From a bacterium (GTDB lineage: Bacteria; BMS3Abin14): 9,082 nucleotides of DNA. Where the stretch lies: positions 1 through 9,082 of the forward strand of contig JARGFV010000098.1 in the NCBI GenBank assembly GCA_029210545.1, read 5' to 3'. Under the pieces are notes generated by a model. It was given only the letters and a program-made list of their open reading frames with translations. It did not search any database and was not told where the DNA came from. This document shows positions 3,376 to 9,082 of this stretch, one piece after another. How positions within the stretch are numbered: the first letter of the stretch is position 1; the number at the start of each line of letters is the position of its first letter. The position numbers were made by a program, and so were the translations under genes.

Positions 3376-4776
3376 TTACCTCTTCGGCCGTGATCCGGAT
3401 CGCGCAGGTGATCCGCTCGTGCCTCGCCGTGGCGGTCGCAAGGAGCGGGAACCCCGGCCGCCGGTACCGGGCGCGGTACGTCCGTGCTTTGCCTGCTTTT
3501 TCCGCGTTTCCTCCCTCTCGAGGGCCATCATCTTTCGCACGGTGAACTCGGGGGTCTTGTCCTGGCCGAAATCCTCGTCGAAAGGGATCCTGGAGGGGAT
3601 GCGGTCGGCCAGAAGCTCCTCAATGGCCGGCAGGGTGTAAACGTACTGGTCGCAGGCCAGTGTATATGCGCGGCCGAGCTTCCCGGCCCTGGCGGTTCGC
3701 CCGATACGGTGGACATAATCTTCGGGGTCCTGGGGCACATCGTAGTTGATGATGTGTGTGACGTCGTCGATGTGCAGGCCCCTGGACGCCACGTCCGAGG
3801 CGATGAGGAGAGGCAGTTTGCCCAGTTTGAAACGTTCCAGGACCCGGTTCCGGGCCGATTGTCTCAGGTCTCCGGTGAGGAGTCCCACATCCTCATAACC
3901 GTGGTCCTTGAGCTTACGGACAAGCCAGCTTGCGGTGATCTTCATGTTGGTGAAGATAAGACCCTTGGGGACATCCTCTTTCCCGAGGATCCCCAGCAGG
4001 AGCGGGAACTTCATGTCCCGGTCCACATGGTAGACGGCCTGGGTGATCCCCTCGGCCGCCAGTTTCTCCGGTGTAATTTCCACATCCCTGGGCCGGTTCA
4101 TGAAATCTCTGGCGATGGAACGGGTCCGGCGGTCCAGGGTGGCTGAAAAGAGGAGGGACTGCCGGTCCCTGGCAGGGGGCAGACGTCGGAAAATGTTCCT
4201 CAGTTCGTCCCAGAACCCCAGGTCCAGCATCCTGTCCGCCTCGTCGATGACCAGGAAACGGATCTGGCCAATGTCCAGGATCCCGCGCCGCATGAAATCC
4301 AGAAGTCGGCCCGGCGTCCCGATGACGATATCGGTCCCGGCCGTAAGCTGGCTCTCCTGGCGGTTGAACCCTTCCCCGCCGTAAATGGCCGCCAACCGGA
4401 TGCCCGTATGCTTACCCAGCAGTTCACCCTCCCGGTGGATCTGGAGAGCCAGTTCGCGGGTTGGGGAGAGGACAAGAGCAAGAGGCTTTTTCCGTTCTTT
4501 TTCGGGTGGATCGGCGAGGATCCGCGTAAAAAGGGTAATGAGGAAGGTCGCGGTCTTGCCCGTACCGGTCTGGGCCTGGGCGCACACGTCGACTCCGGTG
4601 AGGGCAATCGGCATGGCTTCTTCCTGGACCGGGGTCATGGATTCAAAACCGGCGTCCCTGATGCCCGCCATGACCGGTGCAGGCAGGTCGAGGGATGAAA
4701 AGGACAGTGCGTGGGTGCGTGAGTGCGTGGGTGCGTGGGAGACGGGTTCTTTTGCTTGTTGGTCGTGGTCTGTCAC
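3376..4776 (-). CDS. rhlB: RhlB-type DEAD-box ATP-dependent RNA helicase
   Basis: A 466-residue RNA helicase that unwinds short RNA duplexes with ATP, in ribosome assembly or RNA turnover. All core motifs are intact: Q-motif (Phe26, TPVQ 48-51), AQTGTGKT 68-75, PTRELALQ 105-112, TPGR 154-157, DEAD 178-181, SAT 211-213, GLIFTN 272-277, ASDVASRG 326-333 and HRIGRTAR 356-363. The stretch TLACDQYVYTLPAIEELL (372-389) closely resembles the Escherichia coli RhlB segment after motif VI, which is why I prefer RhlB to RhlE. The tail (about 420-466) is rich in Arg, Gly, Ser and Lys and should bind RNA; no RNase E is visible nearby. Translation starts at GTG (4774-4776) with AAGGA about 12 bases upstream. 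Residues 13-23 (HAPTHSRTHA region) are encoded by an 8-bp tandem repeat. A consensus promoter lies at 4824-4852, so the gene is its own unit. Confidence 0.93.
   Translation of the reverse strand: MTDHDQQAKEPVSHAPTHSRTHALSFSSLDLPAPVMAGIRDAGFESMTPVQEEAMPIALTGVDVCAQAQTGTGKTATFLITLFTRILADPPEKERKKPLALVLSPTRELALQIHREGELLGKHTGIRLAAIYGGEGFNRQESQLTAGTDIVIGTPGRLLDFMRRGILDIGQIRFLVIDEADRMLDLGFWDELRNIFRRLPPARDRQSLLFSATLDRRTRSIARDFMNRPRDVEITPEKLAAEGITQAVYHVDRDMKFPLLLGILGKEDVPKGLIFTNMKITASWLVRKLKDHGYEDVGLLTGDLRQSARNRVLERFKLGKLPLLIASDVASRGLHIDDVTHIINYDVPQDPEDYVHRIGRTARAGKLGRAYTLACDQYVYTLPAIEELLADRIPSRIPFDEDFGQDKTPEFTVRKMMALEREETRKKQAKHGRTAPGTGGRGSRSLRPPRRGTSGSPARSGSRPKR
4707..4738. repeat. 8-bp tandem repeat in the helicase N-terminus
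   Basis: Four consecutive 8-base units (GTGCGTGG, GTGCGTGA, GTGCGTGG, GTGCGTGG) differ at one position only. On the minus strand they encode the His/Thr/Ser-rich stretch near helicase residues 13-23, ahead of the conserved core. Because 8 is not a multiple of 3, a change in copy number would shift the frame. Confidence 0.8.
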
Positions 4777-5162: not shown

Positions 5163-5237
5163 TGGTGACCCCACCGGGATTCGAACCCGGACTACCAACG
5201 TGAGAGGCTGGCGTCCTAACCATTAGACGATGGGGCC
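5163..5237 (-). tRNA. tRNA-Glu (anticodon CUC)
   Basis: A 75-base tRNA including an encoded CCA (complement at 5163-5165). The acceptor GGCCCCA pairs with TGGGGTC (one G-U pair), and the discriminator base is A. The anticodon stem CCAGC/GTTGG holds loop CTCTCAC, giving anticodon CUC at 5202-5204 for codon GAG. The T arm is standard, with GTTCGAATC. It lies five bases after tRNA-Gln on the same strand and they are very likely processed from one transcript. Confidence 0.95.
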
Positions 5238-5242
5238 TATTC

Positions 5243-5316
5243 TGGCTGGGGAGGAAGGAGTTGAACCCTCACATACGGAACCAGAATCCGCTGTCCTACC
5301 ATTAGACGACTCCCCA
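5243..5316 (-). tRNA. tRNA-Gln (anticodon CUG)
   Basis: A 74-base tRNA with encoded CCA (complement at 5243-5245). The acceptor TGGGGAG pairs with CTCCCCA and the discriminator is G. The anticodon stem GCGGA/TCCGT holds loop TTCTGGT, giving anticodon CUG at 5282-5284 for codon CAG. The first pair is U1-A72, a known identity feature of bacterial tRNA-Gln charged through Glu-tRNA-Gln and GatCAB. Its D arm is almost the same as that of the adjacent tRNA-Glu (both CGTCTAATGGT). Confidence 0.95.
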
Positions 5317-5386: not shown

Positions 5387-5496
5387 GACGCGGCAACGGG
5401 GGGACACGGCGAAACGGTGAGACTCACAGGTGTATGCCAATATGTCCTTCCGTGCTGTTTGTCCTCCGCGTCCCCGCGTCTTCGCGTCCCCGTGTC
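5387..5496. repeat. Inverted pair of 8-bp-period arrays
   Basis: The left array (5387-5418) has units GACGCGGC, AACGGGGG, GACACGGC and GAAACGGT. The right array (5465-5496) has TCCGCGTC, CCCGCGTC, TTCGCGTC and CCCGTGTC. The complement of the right units (GACGCGGA, GACGCGGG and so on) matches the left consensus GACGCGGN, so the two arrays are in opposite orientation around a 46-base centre and could form a long imperfect hairpin. The block sits between the end of the ABC operon and the tRNA promoter. It may serve as the operon's transcript end, as no ordinary terminator is seen there. Confidence 0.6.
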
Positions 5497-5506
5497 TGCA
5501 CTGCTA

Positions 5507-6235
5507 TCAAGCTGTGGCCTGAGCCGCAGCCGACTTCACCGTTACCGTTTCACTGATGATCCTTTCCTCTTCCACCAGGTGTCCGTCGGCGATCATGAGG
5601 ATCCGGCGCGCGTTGCGTGCGCTTTCCATGCTGTGGGTGACCATGATGATGGTCATGCCCTCGGCGTTCAGTTTGTTCAATAGCCCCATGATGTCGCCGC
5701 TGGTCCTGGAATCCAGGTTGCCGGTGGGTTCGTCGGCGAGGAGTATGGGAGGCTCGTTGACGATGGCTCTCGCCACGGCGACGCGCTCGGCCTCCCCGCC
5801 GGAAACCTGGCTGGGAAGACGGTACTCCTTGCCTTTCAGGCCCACGCGGGCCAGGGCCTCTTCGGCCATCCGTCTCTTCTCCTTTTTGGGGGCCTTGATG
5901 GTGACGAGGGGCAGCATGACGTTCTCGGCCAGTGTCAGGTACGGTATGAGGTTGAAACTCTGGAATACGAACCCGAGGTATTCTCGCCTGAAATCTGCTC
6001 GCTGGTCCCTCGACAGGTTGTAGATGTCGATGTCGTCAACGGTGAAAAGGCCGCTGGTGGGCGTGTTGAGGGCGCCCATCATGGCCAGGAGGGTTGATTT
6101 CCCGGATCCTGATTCGCCCATGACGGCAACGAACTCGCTTTCCTCTATCTCGAAACTGATGCCCCGGACCGCCTGAACGAGGGCGTCGCCGGTGCCGTAG
6201 TGCTTCACAAGGTTGTCTGCTTTTATGTAACCCAT
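5507..6235 (-). CDS. MacB/LolD-type ABC transporter ATP-binding protein
   Basis: A 242-residue cytoplasmic ATPase that would power the FtsX-type permease encoded just upstream. Motifs seen: Walker A GESGSGKST (40-48), Q-loop Gln92, signature VSGGE (144-148), Walker B ILLADE (164-169), D-loop GNLD (172-175) and switch His201. Together they mark an active ATPase of the LolD/MacB/FtsE class, which pairs with four-segment permeases that work mechanically on periplasmic partners instead of forming a solute channel. The frame is open further upstream, but ATG at 6235 is preferred because AAGGAG ends six bases before it. That site overlaps the permease stop codon, indicating translational coupling. 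The last 15 or so residues are an Ala/Val-rich extension. Substrate is not deducible from the ATPase. Confidence 0.92.
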   Translation of the reverse strand: MGYIKADNLVKHYGTGDALVQAVRGISFEIEESEFVAVMGESGSGKSTLLAMMGALNTPTSGLFTVDDIDIYNLSRDQRADFRREYLGFVFQSFNLIPYLTLAENVMLPLVTIKAPKKEKRRMAEEALARVGLKGKEYRLPSQVSGGEAERVAVARAIVNEPPILLADEPTGNLDSRTSGDIMGLLNKLNAEGMTIIMVTHSMESARNARRILMIADGHLVEEERIISETVTVKSAAAQATA

Positions 6236-6245
6236 GGTCATCTCC

Positions 6246-7403
6246 TTACAGCGCCCTGAGCGCGTCGTTGGGGTCCAGTTTGGCCGCGAGCAGAGCCGGG
6301 TAGGTGCTGGCGATGAGGCCGAGCAGGATCGACATGACCACGGCGCCGCCGGCCATGATGGGGTCGAAGGGAACTGCGATGTCCACGCTCTCGGTGAAGA
6401 AGGGCAGGGCGGCGATGGTGGTCCCAAGGCCTCCAAAGTACCCGAGGATGCCGGCCAGGGCCGACACGAGGGCGGCTTCCAGCAGCACGATGCGGATGAT
6501 GTGGCTGCGCCGGTAGCCGATGGCCCTGAAGATGCCGATCTCGCGGGTCCTCTCGCGGACGCTGCCCATCATGGTGACGAGCACCACCAGGCTCCCCACC
6601 AGGATCACCACGGAAGATACGCCGAGGGTCAGCTTCCTGAACTGGGCCAGCGTTTCCATGCGGCCTTTCACCACGGACTGGACGCCCATGACCTTTCCGC
6701 CAGGAACCACCTCCGAGATCTGACGCACCATTTCCTCGATGGGACAGTCCTTGCAAAGAGCCGCCACTTCAGCCATGGAAACGCGGTCTTCCATGCCCAG
6801 CATTAACTGGGCCGTGGCCAGGGGGGTGAAGATGATCTGATCGTCCTGTGAGCCGGTGCCGTCTAAGGCGCCGATCACGGTGAGCTCCCGGCCGTTTGCG
6901 TTAAAGGTGTCTCCGATGTTGAGCCCCAGGCTCTTTGCCGCTTCGCTGCCGAGGAGGACCTGGTCGCCTGCCGGCAGGTCGCCCTGGATGTTCCACCAGG
7001 GTTTGAGGATGGCGGTTGCTTCGAAATCGACCCCTGAAAGCAGGACTTTTTTACCGCTCACCTCCACCACCCCCAGGGCCACGGGGCCCACGGCGGCGAC
7101 GTTGGCGGCGTTTGTGATGGTGCGGATCTTTTCGAGCTGGCTCATGTGGATCTCTTCCATCTCGAAGGAGACGCCTCCCAGGGCGAGTCCGCCGTAGGTG
7201 AGGGACAGGTTCTCCGTTTTCGGGACGATGAGGATGTTGGCGCCGAACTTGTCCAGCTTGTCGGTGATGTCCGTGCGCATGGCGTCGACCAGGCTCATGA
7301 GGGCCACAACGGTGATGACCCCGATGAGCAGGCCGGCCAGCAGGAAGGCCGCCTTGGCCTTCCTGCGCCTCAGGTTAAGAAGCGCTATATCTGTCAGATT
7401 CAT
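6246..7403 (-). CDS. FtsX/MacB-type ABC transporter permease with periplasmic CxxC
   Basis: A 385-residue inner-membrane permease with the standard MacB topology: one N-terminal membrane segment (about 19-39), a large periplasmic domain (about 40-257) and three C-terminal segments (about 258-280, 303-330 and 348-372). The cytoplasmic loop RERTREIGIFRAIGYRR (283-299) is the usual coupling segment for the ATPase. The periplasmic domain carries Cys217 and Cys220 as CKDC, the only cysteines in the protein, which could form a disulphide or bind a metal. Its gene starts three bases after the DUF2318 stop, and its AGGAG ribosome site lies within the last codons of DUF2318, so the two are coupled. 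In known FtrD-like/P19 iron loci of Campylobacter type, similar permeases accompany a DUF2318 protein. A role in moving or assembling metal- or thiol-linked cargo is inference. Confidence 0.9.
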   Translation of the reverse strand: MNLTDIALLNLRRRKAKAAFLLAGLLIGVITVVALMSLVDAMRTDITDKLDKFGANILIVPKTENLSLTYGGLALGGVSFEMEEIHMSQLEKIRTITNAANVAAVGPVALGVVEVSGKKVLLSGVDFEATAILKPWWNIQGDLPAGDQVLLGSEAAKSLGLNIGDTFNANGRELTVIGALDGTGSQDDQIIFTPLATAQLMLGMEDRVSMAEVAALCKDCPIEEMVRQISEVVPGGKVMGVQSVVKGRMETLAQFRKLTLGVSSVVILVGSLVVLVTMMGSVRERTREIGIFRAIGYRRSHIIRIVLLEAALVSALAGILGYFGGLGTTIAALPFFTESVDIAVPFDPIMAGGAVVMSILLGLIASTYPALLAAKLDPNDALRAL

Positions 7404-7406
7404 GTC

Positions 7407-7949
7407 TCAGCTCCTGTTGAAGTTGAAGTAGAAGGACCCCTGCTCGATGATGTCCCTGACCTTGATGATCACGTTGCCGCCGGCGACGGTGCGGGTCAGA
7501 GGTGACGGGTTGCATCCGCCCTTGACCTCGTTGATCTTCACGGAAGGGAACCTGAGGCCGCAGTTGTTGCACACCATGACGTCGCCTTCCTGGCGGTACC
7601 CTTTACCCGCTGCCCAGCAGGTGTCACAGGCGTCGAAGGCGGCCCTGATGACGCCGTCGGAGCTCTTCATGATGAAGTACCGGATATCCAGGCCCTTGGG
7701 GGACTTGAAGGAGTAGTACCTGGCCTTGCCGTCATTGAAATCGCTCACGGGGTAGGAAAATTCAGAAGCGCCGGTGCTTTTCACCGCGGCGGTAGCGGCC
7801 ACTGGGCCGGCTTCTTTCTTCCCGCCGAGGAGGAACATGCCGCCGCCGGCCAGGGCGGCCGCGACGATGAGGGTGATGAACATGGGAGCCTTGCTCTTCC
7901 TGCTCTGCAGGACGGCGGCTTTCTTGTCTTTTGAGGTTTTCTTGGACAT
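7407..7949 (-). CDS. DUF2318 / FtrD-like membrane-anchored cysteine protein
   Basis: A 180-residue protein anchored by one N-terminal segment (about 22-42, after a basic, lysine-rich start), with the rest facing the periplasm. Its five cysteines fit the DUF2318 (FtrD-like) pattern: FDACDTC (Cys108, Cys111), CNNCG (Cys127, Cys130) and GGCNP (Cys146), together with the KGYRQEGD spacer. Members are annotated as membrane iron-sulphur-type proteins. The named relative FtrD acts with a FTR1-like permease and P19-type proteins in ferrous iron uptake, where electron transfer is proposed. The frame is open up to 8018, but ATG 7949 is chosen because AAAAGGAG lies just before it and the extension is only translated 7-bp repeat. 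An AT-rich stretch at about 8009-8036 could hold a weak promoter. The FtsX permease and ATPase genes follow closely. Confidence 0.88.
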   Translation of the reverse strand: MSKKTSKDKKAAVLQSRKSKAPMFITLIVAAALAGGGMFLLGGKKEAGPVAATAAVKSTGASEFSYPVSDFNDGKARYYSFKSPKGLDIRYFIMKSSDGVIRAAFDACDTCWAAGKGYRQEGDVMVCNNCGLRFPSVKINEVKGGCNPSPLTRTVAGGNVIIKVRDIIEQGSFYFNFNRS

Positions 7950-7964
7950 TTTTTCTCCTTTTAC

Positions 7965-8006
7965 GGATCCAGGATCCAAGGCCCAAAATCCAGGGTCCAA
8001 GGTCCT
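7965..8006. repeat. 7-bp-period array before the DUF2318 gene
   Basis: Six units run without a break: GGATCCA, GGATCCA, AGGCCCA, AAATCCA, GGGTCCA and AGGTCCT. The array begins 15 bases upstream of the DUF2318 start codon, just beyond its ribosome site, so it will lie in the leader of any transcript entering the gene. GGATCC-type palindromes could fold locally. Confidence 0.7.
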
Positions 8007-8093
8007 GTATAATTTCAATCGATAATATGTTTTTAAGCGAACGGGTAGTGCAGGGATCAGGCGGAAGGCGGGCGTTTAAGCGCAGCTATACAT

Positions 8094-8121
8094 GGTACCT
8101 GGCACCTGGCGCCTGGCACTC
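8094..8121. repeat. 7-bp-period array in the Cys-protein/DUF2318 gap
   Basis: Units GGTACCT, GGCACCT, GGCGCCT and GGCACTC follow at 7-base spacing. A small stem CCGCC/GGCGG (8121-8134) follows directly, but it has no T-tract and is not a convincing terminator. Transcription from the Cys-rich gene may therefore continue into DUF2318 through this 191-base gap. Confidence 0.6.
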
Positions 8122-8140
8122 CGCCGTCAGGCGGGTAGAT

Positions 8141-8539
8141 TCAACACAAAAACGTTGCGTTGGAAAGGTAGAGGGGTGCTTCTGGGGGAGGGGGTTGTGC
8201 AACGTGGAGTGTGCGTGCGTGTGTGCGTAGATCTGTGTCGACAAAGGCATCTTCAGTAGAGGCAACAGTTACAGCTGACAGCTGGTGGCTGCCGGCTGAA
8301 TTGAAGCAGCAGATTGCTTCGTCGAACAGTTCGTCCGCGGCTCCGGCTTCGAAGCCGCAGGTGACGCCGGATATGTCGCAGCAGGAAGGCGCCTCGTATG
8401 AGGCGGTACCGCCGGCGGCCCACTCTCCCGGCATGCAGCAATCCATGCCGCAGTCGGTGATGGACGCAAACGCCCAGGCGCCCATGAGGTTCAGGGCGAG
8501 GACGGCGATCACCAGTATGTGAAGGCTCTTCCTATACAT
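8141..8539 (-). CDS. Small exported cysteine-rich protein
   Basis: A 132-residue protein of no family I can name. Residues 1-25 are a signal peptide (MYRKSLHILVIAVLALNLMG, then AWAFA). The mature part has nine cysteines: 30, 34, 35 (DCGMDCC), 53, 54 (PSCC), 61, 77, 78 (AICC) and a final Cys132 after APLYLSNATFL. A repeated Cys-Cys pattern plus methionine suggests soft-metal binding or disulphides in the periplasm; this is inference. The aromatic/hydrophobic end closing in Cys looks deliberate and may be a contact site. ATG 8539 gives a normal signal peptide but has only a distant GGAGAG upstream. ATG 8593, with AGGA two bases before it, would add 18 residues. It is the first gene downstream of a strong promoter, and the DUF2318, permease and ATPase genes follow on the same strand. 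Confidence 0.72.
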   Translation of the reverse strand: MYRKSLHILVIAVLALNLMGAWAFASITDCGMDCCMPGEWAAGGTASYEAPSCCDISGVTCGFEAGAADELFDEAICCFNSAGSHQLSAVTVASTEDAFVDTDLRTHARTLHVAQPPPPEAPLYLSNATFLC

Positions 8540-8601
8540 TTTTTGTTTGTTTACTCTCCAAAGTACAAAAAATGTCTGTGTCAGTTTGATCATTTTCCTG
8601 G

Positions 8602-8627
8602 CTCCCGTAGGAATATAGCACCGGGAG
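8602..8627. promoter_or_regulatory. Inverted repeat centred on the -10 box (possible operator)
   Basis: Arms CTCCCG (8602-8607) and CGGGAG (8622-8627) are separated by 14 bases. The midpoint coincides exactly with that of the -10 hexamer at 8612-8617. Because transcription would start within the left arm, the dyad cannot fold fully in RNA and is better explained as a protein site on DNA. The regulator is not identified. Confidence 0.45.
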
Positions 8628-8639
8628 TTCTAATGTCAA
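8612..8639 (-). promoter_or_regulatory. Sigma70-type promoter of the Cys-rich/DUF2318 locus
   Basis: On the minus strand TTGACA (8634-8639) is followed after 16 bases by TATATT (8612-8617), a perfect -35 and a 5-of-6 -10. Transcription would start near 8605, leaving about 66 bases before ATG 8539. Confidence 0.75.
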
Positions 8640-8665
8640 CTGAAATGGTAAGGAAAGGGAGAAGG

Positions 8666-8686
8666 AAGGAGGAAGGAGGAAGGAGG
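8666..8686. repeat. Perfect 7-bp tandem repeat AAGGAGG
   Basis: Three exact copies of AAGGAGG occupy 8666-8672, 8673-8679 and 8680-8686. It lies about 25 bases upstream of the -35 box of the Cys-rich gene promoter. On the plus strand each copy resembles a Shine-Dalgarno, but no gene follows. Confidence 0.75.
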
Positions 8687-8846
8687 GGGAATATGGAAGA
8701 ACCTTTGCAACCAGGATTCATGAGATCGAACTTCTGGTGATTTTTGGCACCGATAAGGCTTACACCCGGGGGTGCATGGGGCTTAAGTGTGTGAGAGGCG
8801 AGCTTGCCAAGCCATAGCTCAAAGAGCGACGGCTGGAACTGACCCC

Positions 8847-8872
8847 ATAGGGGTACCTTATAGGGGTACCTT
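8847..8872. repeat. 13-bp exact tandem duplication
   Basis: ATAGGGGTACCTT occurs at 8847-8859 and again at 8860-8872 with no spacer. It carries the GGTACC palindrome twice. The function is unknown; it could be a slippage product or paired binding sites. Confidence 0.7.
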
Positions 8873-8972
8873 TGGTGAAAAGAGAAAAGTTGGGCTTCTG
8901 AGCAAATCAAACCGCAGCTTATTAGACCAGACTGGATACCGTTCCACGCTGGTTTTCTCTGGGCTGTTTGCA

Positions 8973-9008
8973 TAACGAGGCAGCGGCCTCAACACCGCTG
9001 CCTCGTTA
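8973..9008. terminator. Long GC-rich hairpin, probable terminator
   Basis: A perfect 14-bp stem (8973-8986 with 8995-9008, TAACGAGGCAGCGG and its complement) has an 8-base loop. TTTTT follows on the plus strand after a short gap (9016-9020). No T-tract follows on the minus strand. It could end a plus-strand transcript, or a minus-strand gene whose stop overlaps it. The direction is uncertain. Confidence 0.6.
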
Positions 9009-9082
9009 AGTACCTGTTTTTGGTATCTTCTGTATCCCAGTTCGGGCAATTCCTCTGTTTGAGCTACACCACCCAATCCATT

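Follow-up and report, generated by a model that had tools for sequence, protein, structure and literature searches.

Genes for DUF2318 proteins were found in a 2018 study almost always within iron clusters of the FTR1/P19 type (PMC6083913), and in Campylobacter DUF2318 and FtsX-type ATP-binding cassette (ABC) genes support iron uptake by FetMP (PMC10783030, PMC6083913). Metal operons can also be headed by small exported cysteine proteins: CutF of Rhodobacter is an exported nascent copper sensor, with a stem-loop that shields the downstream ribosome-binding site (PMC9973294), and CruR of Bordetella (a DUF2946 protein) combines a fixed CXXC-RAPP spacing with a 162-bp spacer, a C>G bubble and Rho (PMC9426467). 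The locus analysed here resembles both. It is a four-gene operon on a contig of an uncultured bacterium (JARGFV010000098.1; the window, 9,082 nt, is this one whole contig, so that the context upstream of the operon ends at 9082), and it encodes a cysteine-rich exported protein, a DUF2318 protein, an FtsX-type permease and an ATPase. It represents a new variant of the DUF2318 systems that is FTR1-free, and its first gene belongs to a new Cys-rich family that is most likely the regulator.

The operon and its conservation

The first-pass annotation of the window had proposed a four-gene locus with an exported nine-cysteine protein at its head and tRNA genes at its end. Coordinates and domain matches bear this out: all four genes lie on the minus strand, with no change of position, in the order Cys-rich gene, DUF2318 gene, permease gene, ATPase gene behind a single promoter-like site, and two tRNA genes follow. 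The features are these:

8612..8639, minus strand: sigma-70-like promoter, TTGACA-16-TATATT, with 11/12 consensus matches
8141..8539, minus strand: first gene, Cys-rich exported protein of 132 aa with 9 Cys (family alignment A4), the proposed nascent-chain metal sensor or leader
8357..8452, minus strand: residues 30-61 of the first gene, forming its Cys core (CxMxCC..CC..C, with invariant Cys)
8177..8356, minus strand: diverged stretch of fixed length from the last core Cys to the C-terminal motif (58.4 +/- 2.1 residues, ~10% identity)
8144..8176, minus strand: C-terminal motif PLYLSNATFLC, immediately before the stop codon (motif in 53/61 family members)
7950..8140, minus strand: intergenic spacer of 191 nt between the first gene and the DUF2318 gene (101-474 nt across loci)
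7407..7949, minus strand: short DUF2318/FtrD-like protein (PF10080) with one transmembrane anchor and a periplasmic domain that is Rieske-like in its model
7512..7628, minus strand: CxxC-x15-CxxC-x15-C motif of DUF2318 (48/48 short-form sequences)
6246..7403, minus strand: FtsX/MacB-type ABC permease of 385 aa (PF02687 and PF12704)
6741..6755, minus strand: CKDCP motif terminating the periplasmic domain of the permease, invariant in alignment A3
5507..6235, minus strand: ABC ATPase of the LolD/MacB type (PF00005, 111.9 bits)
5163-5316: tRNA-Glu and tRNA-Gln, 3' of the operon

The promoter-like site (8639-8612, just 5' of the Cys-rich gene) is a strong one and the only one within 5400-9082; it is kept in the related genomes G003, G008 and G001, and G007 retains TTGACA only. 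The DUF2318 and permease genes are separated by 3 nt, which is also the median of this gap across loci, and the permease and ATPase genes by 10 nt. In 64 of 65 loci the Cys-rich-to-DUF2318 spacer measures 101-474 nt; the exception (L032) holds a gene for a protein with HMA and SurA_N domains.

Among the genomes of the bacterium's own family DUF2318 is present in 5/12, with permease and ATPase behind it in every case. The Cys-rich gene is conserved beside DUF2318, as the first-pass annotation needed it to be, in 5/5 of these loci: four have it in full length and the fifth, at a contig end, has its last codons only, the C-terminal fragment. A scan of named genomes yielded 80 DUF2318 loci, nearly all from Desulfobacterota metagenome-assembled genomes, and with the wider profile a Cys-rich relative was found just 5' of DUF2318 in 62 of the 72 loci that have at least 700 nt of upstream sequence. 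A restricted profile, made from the four own-family Cys-rich proteins, matched 39 further open reading frames (ORFs) among 6669 at E<=0.6, every one of them directly upstream of DUF2318 and on the same strand. Family members are related, so that these counts are not counts of independent events. The four-gene set is not a chance assembly; relatives have the genes in this order, and so do dozens of other genomes. One candidate for a Cys-rich gene without DUF2318, in G001, was rejected, the gene running into a 100-N scaffold gap.

Several features of individual loci were noted by the way. In the own-family relatives L012, L013, L014 and L016 the operon is divergent from a conserved cluster, upstream of the Cys-rich gene, that was annotated by eye as Hsp20 - DnaJ - MerR/CbpM-like - HtpX - DegP-like; the window contig stops short of this cluster. 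L059 and L070, at about 9300-12000, have DUF2318 without permease or ATPase, the neighbours (also annotated by eye) being an aldehyde ferredoxin oxidoreductase-like gene, MoaD/ThiS-like genes and a conserved protein of 317-319 aa. In L062, at 10573-11028, the first part of the permease continues in frame into the middle of the ATPase, as though most of the permease had been lost by deletion.

A second form of DUF2318

That FTR1 and P19 are missing from the window had been pointed out at first pass. This holds, and it extends to the genome (97.5% complete), in which neither FTR1 nor P19 (PF10634) was found; an FTR1/P19 set elsewhere in the genome thus does not explain the locus. FTR1 is likewise absent from 49/50 further genomes that were reached by way of the DUF2318 module. 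The distinction goes with the form of the DUF2318 protein. Short forms are mostly paired with one permease and one ATPase, whereas the long, FetA-like forms (360-471 aa) are mostly paired with two permeases. In a domain-wide sample FTR1 was matched in 0/15 short-form genomes versus 10/11 long-form genomes, and P19 was found in 0/29 short-form genomes tested (the bacterium's own and 28 others) versus 4/11. The cysteines of the short form are spaced CxxC-x15-CxxC-x15-C in 48/48 sequences, the intervals in the long form being x13/x14 in 7/7 (the Fet/Ftr-type pattern is CxxC-x13-CxxC-x14,15-C), and a CxxC, usually CxxCP, is present in 70/73 homologues of the short-form permease versus 0/3 Fet-type permeases that were checked. 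The module is, then, independent of FTR1 and P19, with a short DUF2318 form and a single CxxCP permease as its diagnostic marks.

In six long-form genomes (G092, G417, G109, G118, G255 and G386) FTR1 and DUF2318 are matched within a single open frame. It is the N-terminal membrane domain of the long protein that matches the FTR1 family, which suggests that FetA arose as a fusion of an FTR1-like domain with DUF2318. Like FetMP-FetABCDEF of Campylobacter (FetA = DUF2318), the operon joins a DUF2318 gene to genes for an FtsX-type permease and an ATPase (PMC10783030, PMC6083913). It differs in lacking FetM/FTR1 and P19, in having one permease rather than two and a DUF2318 protein without the fused FTR1-like transmembrane domain, in the x15/x15 Cys spacing and the permease CxxCP, in the Cys-rich gene that comes first, and in the copper-type neighbours discussed below. 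These differences from Fet-type DUF2318 go beyond what the first-pass annotation had claimed, as do the generality of the gene order and the C-terminal motif and fixed spacing of the Cys-rich protein. What emerges is a second, widespread class of DUF2318, FTR1-free and with signatures of its own, that leans towards copper-type functions and contrasts with the association stated in the 2018 survey (PMC6083913); the metal implied by many 'FtrD-like' annotations may therefore be wrong.

The DUF2318 protein of the window (180 aa) matches PF10080 at E 6.5e-29 (100.5 bits, the cut-off being 26.3). A sequence search for solved DUF2318 homologues returned none. Its predicted structure has a pLDDT (model confidence score) of 82, with the blocks of the periplasmic domain mostly >90; the top Foldseek matches of this model are Rieske proteins, and VIA-align superimposes it on 1vm9, the toluene-4-monooxygenase ferredoxin, with a Z score of 9.7 over 101 residues (2.9 A). 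The periplasmic domain is accordingly modelled with a Rieske-like fold. Rieske-type [2Fe-2S] ferredoxins share this predicted fold; they have CxH/CxxH ligand loops, whereas DUF2318 has CxxC/CxxC (48/48 aligned sequences), a fifth conserved Cys and a membrane anchor. The permease passes the cut-offs of both PF02687 (FtsX) and PF12704 (MacB_PCD), its matches in the Protein Data Bank being MacB/LolE, and it stays well below the NCBIfam equivalog cut-offs (55.8 bits versus 966 for MacB, 50.2 versus 362 for LolCE). The ATPase is below the LolD and MacB equivalog cut-offs as well.

The cysteine-rich first gene

Judged by its sequence relatives, the first gene belongs to a conserved, unannotated Cys-rich family, without a Pfam or NCBIfam match except for one weak, stray Pfam match. 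Members mostly have six to ten Cys, and 57/61 begin with a hydrophobic N-terminus that looks like a signal peptide. Conservation along the sequence is very low overall, the model of the window's protein is disordered and of too low a quality for use (pLDDT 64), and a sequence search found no solved homologue. Some features stand out against this background. One is a set of cysteines, C34 and C61 being at least 90% conserved across 56 sequences of alignment A4. Another is the C-terminus: P[LI]YLxxxSxL[CI]-stop ends 53/61 family members versus 17/4363 other ORFs, and the distance from the last core Cys to the Pro of this motif is 58.4 +/- 2.1 residues (exactly 59 in 28/52) with an intervening identity of ~10%. 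By comparison, the C34-C54 distance is variable (standard deviation 10.2). Twenty groups with <30% spacer identity have the modal Cys-to-motif spacing in common. The last core Cys sits 69-70 residues from the C-terminus, and 10/10 copies from outside the alignment have a Cys at 68-70 residues (in L164 another Cys comes next). PP or PxP occurs at -15 to -11 in 32/61 of the proteins; the motif itself differs from the proline-rich/RAPP type. Membership in DUF2946 (PF11162) was considered and rejected: 0 members of A4 match it, and the genome has no DUF2946 protein.

The nucleotide sequence has a composition of its own. C exceeds G in 63/64 first genes (p 6e-12 versus the DUF2318 genes) and in 46/64 of the spacers that follow (p 1e-9 versus DUF2318). 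RNA structure in the spacer region of the window (7900-8145) is weak (z -1.87), and no intrinsic terminator was detected on the minus strand of this spacer.

A paralogous Cys-rich subfamily with the C-terminus VPLYIENLSLII was encountered away from DUF2318 (L144, L145, L148, L149 and L150). In several genomes the VPLYIENLSLII subfamily is kept directly 5' of a gene of ~360 aa, which encodes an HMA-SurA_N protein in the case that was tested, L148.

Which metal?

The first-pass annotation had read the locus as a stand-alone periplasmic metal or redox module. This is supported, and the neighbours sharpen it to a soft-metal, probably copper-type system, with HMA-SurA_N, CusCBA, CsoR, CopA and CcoI neighbours and paralogues as the reason. 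About 1.0 Mb of DUF2318 loci contain eight HMA matches, all of them within this operon type, placed directly behind the ATPase, between the Cys-rich gene and DUF2318 (L032) or beside CusCBA-like genes (L026); most are HMA-SurA_N proteins. CusC/B/A-like genes lie downstream in L026 and L087. In other phyla HMA proteins fill the upstream slot (L156, L160, L161, L163), and CcoI-type ATPases adjoin L157 and L158.

The Cys-rich copies that lie away from DUF2318 keep similar company. Some head CusCB(A) operons, preceding genes for OEP and CusB-like proteins with heavy-metal-binding domains (L152/L153, L182, L184), the copy in L184 coming directly after a CsoR-family repressor; in L183 the gene in front of the copy encodes a CopA with YHS and HMA domains; others, in L148 and similar loci, stand before an HMA-SurA_N gene, and those in L142 and L143 lie near a COX2/cupredoxin-like gene. 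From these neighbourhoods the metal handled would be a soft metal, most likely copper. The fusion of HMA to a SurA_N-like chaperone domain (L032:944-1927, L156, L163, L148) is itself a recurrent companion, of the DUF2318 module as well as of the Cys-rich family, and some of the fusion proteins end in a Cys-rich tail (GSCCAAK, GGCCSKRG).

Leader, chaperone or redox partner

The reading that we prefer, with a probability of about 0.5, is of a stand-alone soft-metal ABC operon, most likely of the Cu(I) type, that carries its own sensor leader. In its transport part the periplasmic ligand of the anchored, all-Cys, Rieske-like DUF2318 domain would be metal or thiolate, the permease would receive this ligand at its CxxCP site, and the ATPase would power transfer or extrusion. 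In its regulatory part the Cys-rich protein would be synthesised and exported through Sec. A length of ~70 residues roughly spans the ribosome tunnel and SecYEG. Given the ~70 residues between the last core Cys and the C-terminus, the Cys core would therefore just enter the periplasm with the ribosome at the stop codon. Metal bound by the core cysteines just past the translocon (SecYEG), while the ribosome is at the C-terminal motif, could then shift the pace or the arrest of translation and so set expression of the downstream genes, by Rho attenuation or by translational coupling across the spacer, as has been proposed for CutF and CruR.

The fixed C-terminal motif, the fixed Cys spacing at ~10% identity, the long spacer and the C>G bubble are the reasons for considering the Cys-rich protein closer to a metal-sensing leader of the CutF/CruR kind than to a stable chaperone, and most likely the regulator of the operon. 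Like CutF (PMC9973294) and CruR (PMC9426467) it is a small exported Cys protein that comes first in metal operons and ends, close to the stop codon, in a conserved motif; with CruR it further shares the fixed Cys-to-motif spacing, the long intergenic region and the C>G bubble (PMC9426467). The geometry is different, the Cys core lying ~70 residues from the C-terminus, whereas the CXXC and RAPP of CruR are 45 residues apart (PMC9426467). The motif P[LI]YLxxxSxL[CI]-stop is new, DUF2946 is not matched, a stem-loop that shields the ribosome-binding site was not detected, and the target genes are new. The main text of the CutF paper (PMC9973294) mentions no FtsX, MacB, ABC transporter or FtrD, and its supplementary lists may already count some family members as CutF-like.

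That the family constitutes a class of periplasmic metal sensors, new and widespread, which act as nascent chains with the C-terminal motif as a pausing site and control FTR1-independent DUF2318-FtsX pumps and Cus-type efflux operons alike, is a tentative extension to which we would give somewhat less than an even chance. Should the protein be a nascent sensor, metal sensing by translation would gain a new C-terminal motif and a geometry on the periplasmic side. A parallel in the way of working is the copper assembly system NosDFY-NosL, in which an ABC ATPase and permease work with a periplasmic partner and a copper chaperone; the present operon is without N2O reductase genes.

Several observations weigh against this picture. 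No metal gene adjoins the window's own operon, and some DUF2318 operons carry thioredoxin-like, MauE, cation-efflux or Metal_resist genes instead, so that the metal may vary. The CutF mechanism is not supported: shielding of the ribosome-binding site of the DUF2318 gene by a stem-loop was rejected, since accessibility equals that of shuffled sequences in 57 loci; intrinsic terminators in the spacer are rare (2/57 loci). The C-terminal motif differs from RAPP, and hhalign against DUF2946 aligns 17 C-terminal columns only, at 5% probability. The Cys-to-motif spacing, finally, was measured on related sequences, although these include the 20 groups that are <30% identical.

The principal rival makes the Cys-rich protein a stable periplasmic metallochaperone or buffer, its Cys core passing metal to DUF2318 and on to the permease and its tail serving as a docking motif. 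Consistent with this are the usual complement of six to ten Cys, the signal-peptide-like N-terminus (57/61), the invariable adjacency to DUF2318 among matches of the restricted profile and the HMA proteins that occupy the same upstream slot in other phyla. The family also heads Cus-type and HMA-SurA_N operons with no DUF2318 nearby, however, and the tail therefore cannot be a dock for DUF2318 only; low conservation, a disordered model (pLDDT 64), a length that is kept without sequence, the long spacer and the C>G bubble suit a leader better. We consider the chaperone rather unlikely on balance. Substrate, metal donor and regulator were the three roles first proposed for this protein; the evidence favours a regulator of the CutF/CruR kind, with some room left for a metal-binding chaperone.

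It is less probable still that the operon is a periplasmic thiol/disulfide module, in which DUF2318 and the permease CxxCP would relay electrons or thiols, with the Cys-rich protein as redox substrate and metal incidental. The CxxC pairs of both proteins and the Rieske-like fold would fit such a scheme, as would the genes for thioredoxin-like proteins or MauE that lie downstream in L027, L053, L060 and L076 and the divergent arrangement of the own-family operon and the Hsp20-DnaJ-HtpX-DegP cluster (assigned by eye); it does not account for the confinement of every HMA match in 1.0 Mb to this operon, nor for the Cus, CsoR, CopA and CcoI contexts. An iron-uptake accessory like FetABCD, serving another, distant iron permease, has the precedent of DUF2318 and FtsX-type ABC genes that aid FetMP in Campylobacter (PMC10783030, PMC6083913), and is very improbable here: FTR1 and P19 are absent from the bacterium's own genome and from nearly all genomes with the short form, and Cys spacing, permease number and permease motif all depart from Fet.

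Other features of the window

An Rfam scan of the window detects the two tRNAs and no other RNA family. Simple-sequence runs, CACACGCAC / GTGCGTG, occur at 8160-8230, in the Cys-to-motif stretch of the Cys-rich gene, and again at 4700-4745, near the start of a DEAD-box helicase gene. Near the contig end, at 8973-9008, lies a perfect 14-bp inverted repeat, TAACGAGGCAGCGG / CCGCTGCCTCGTTA, with an 8-nt loop.

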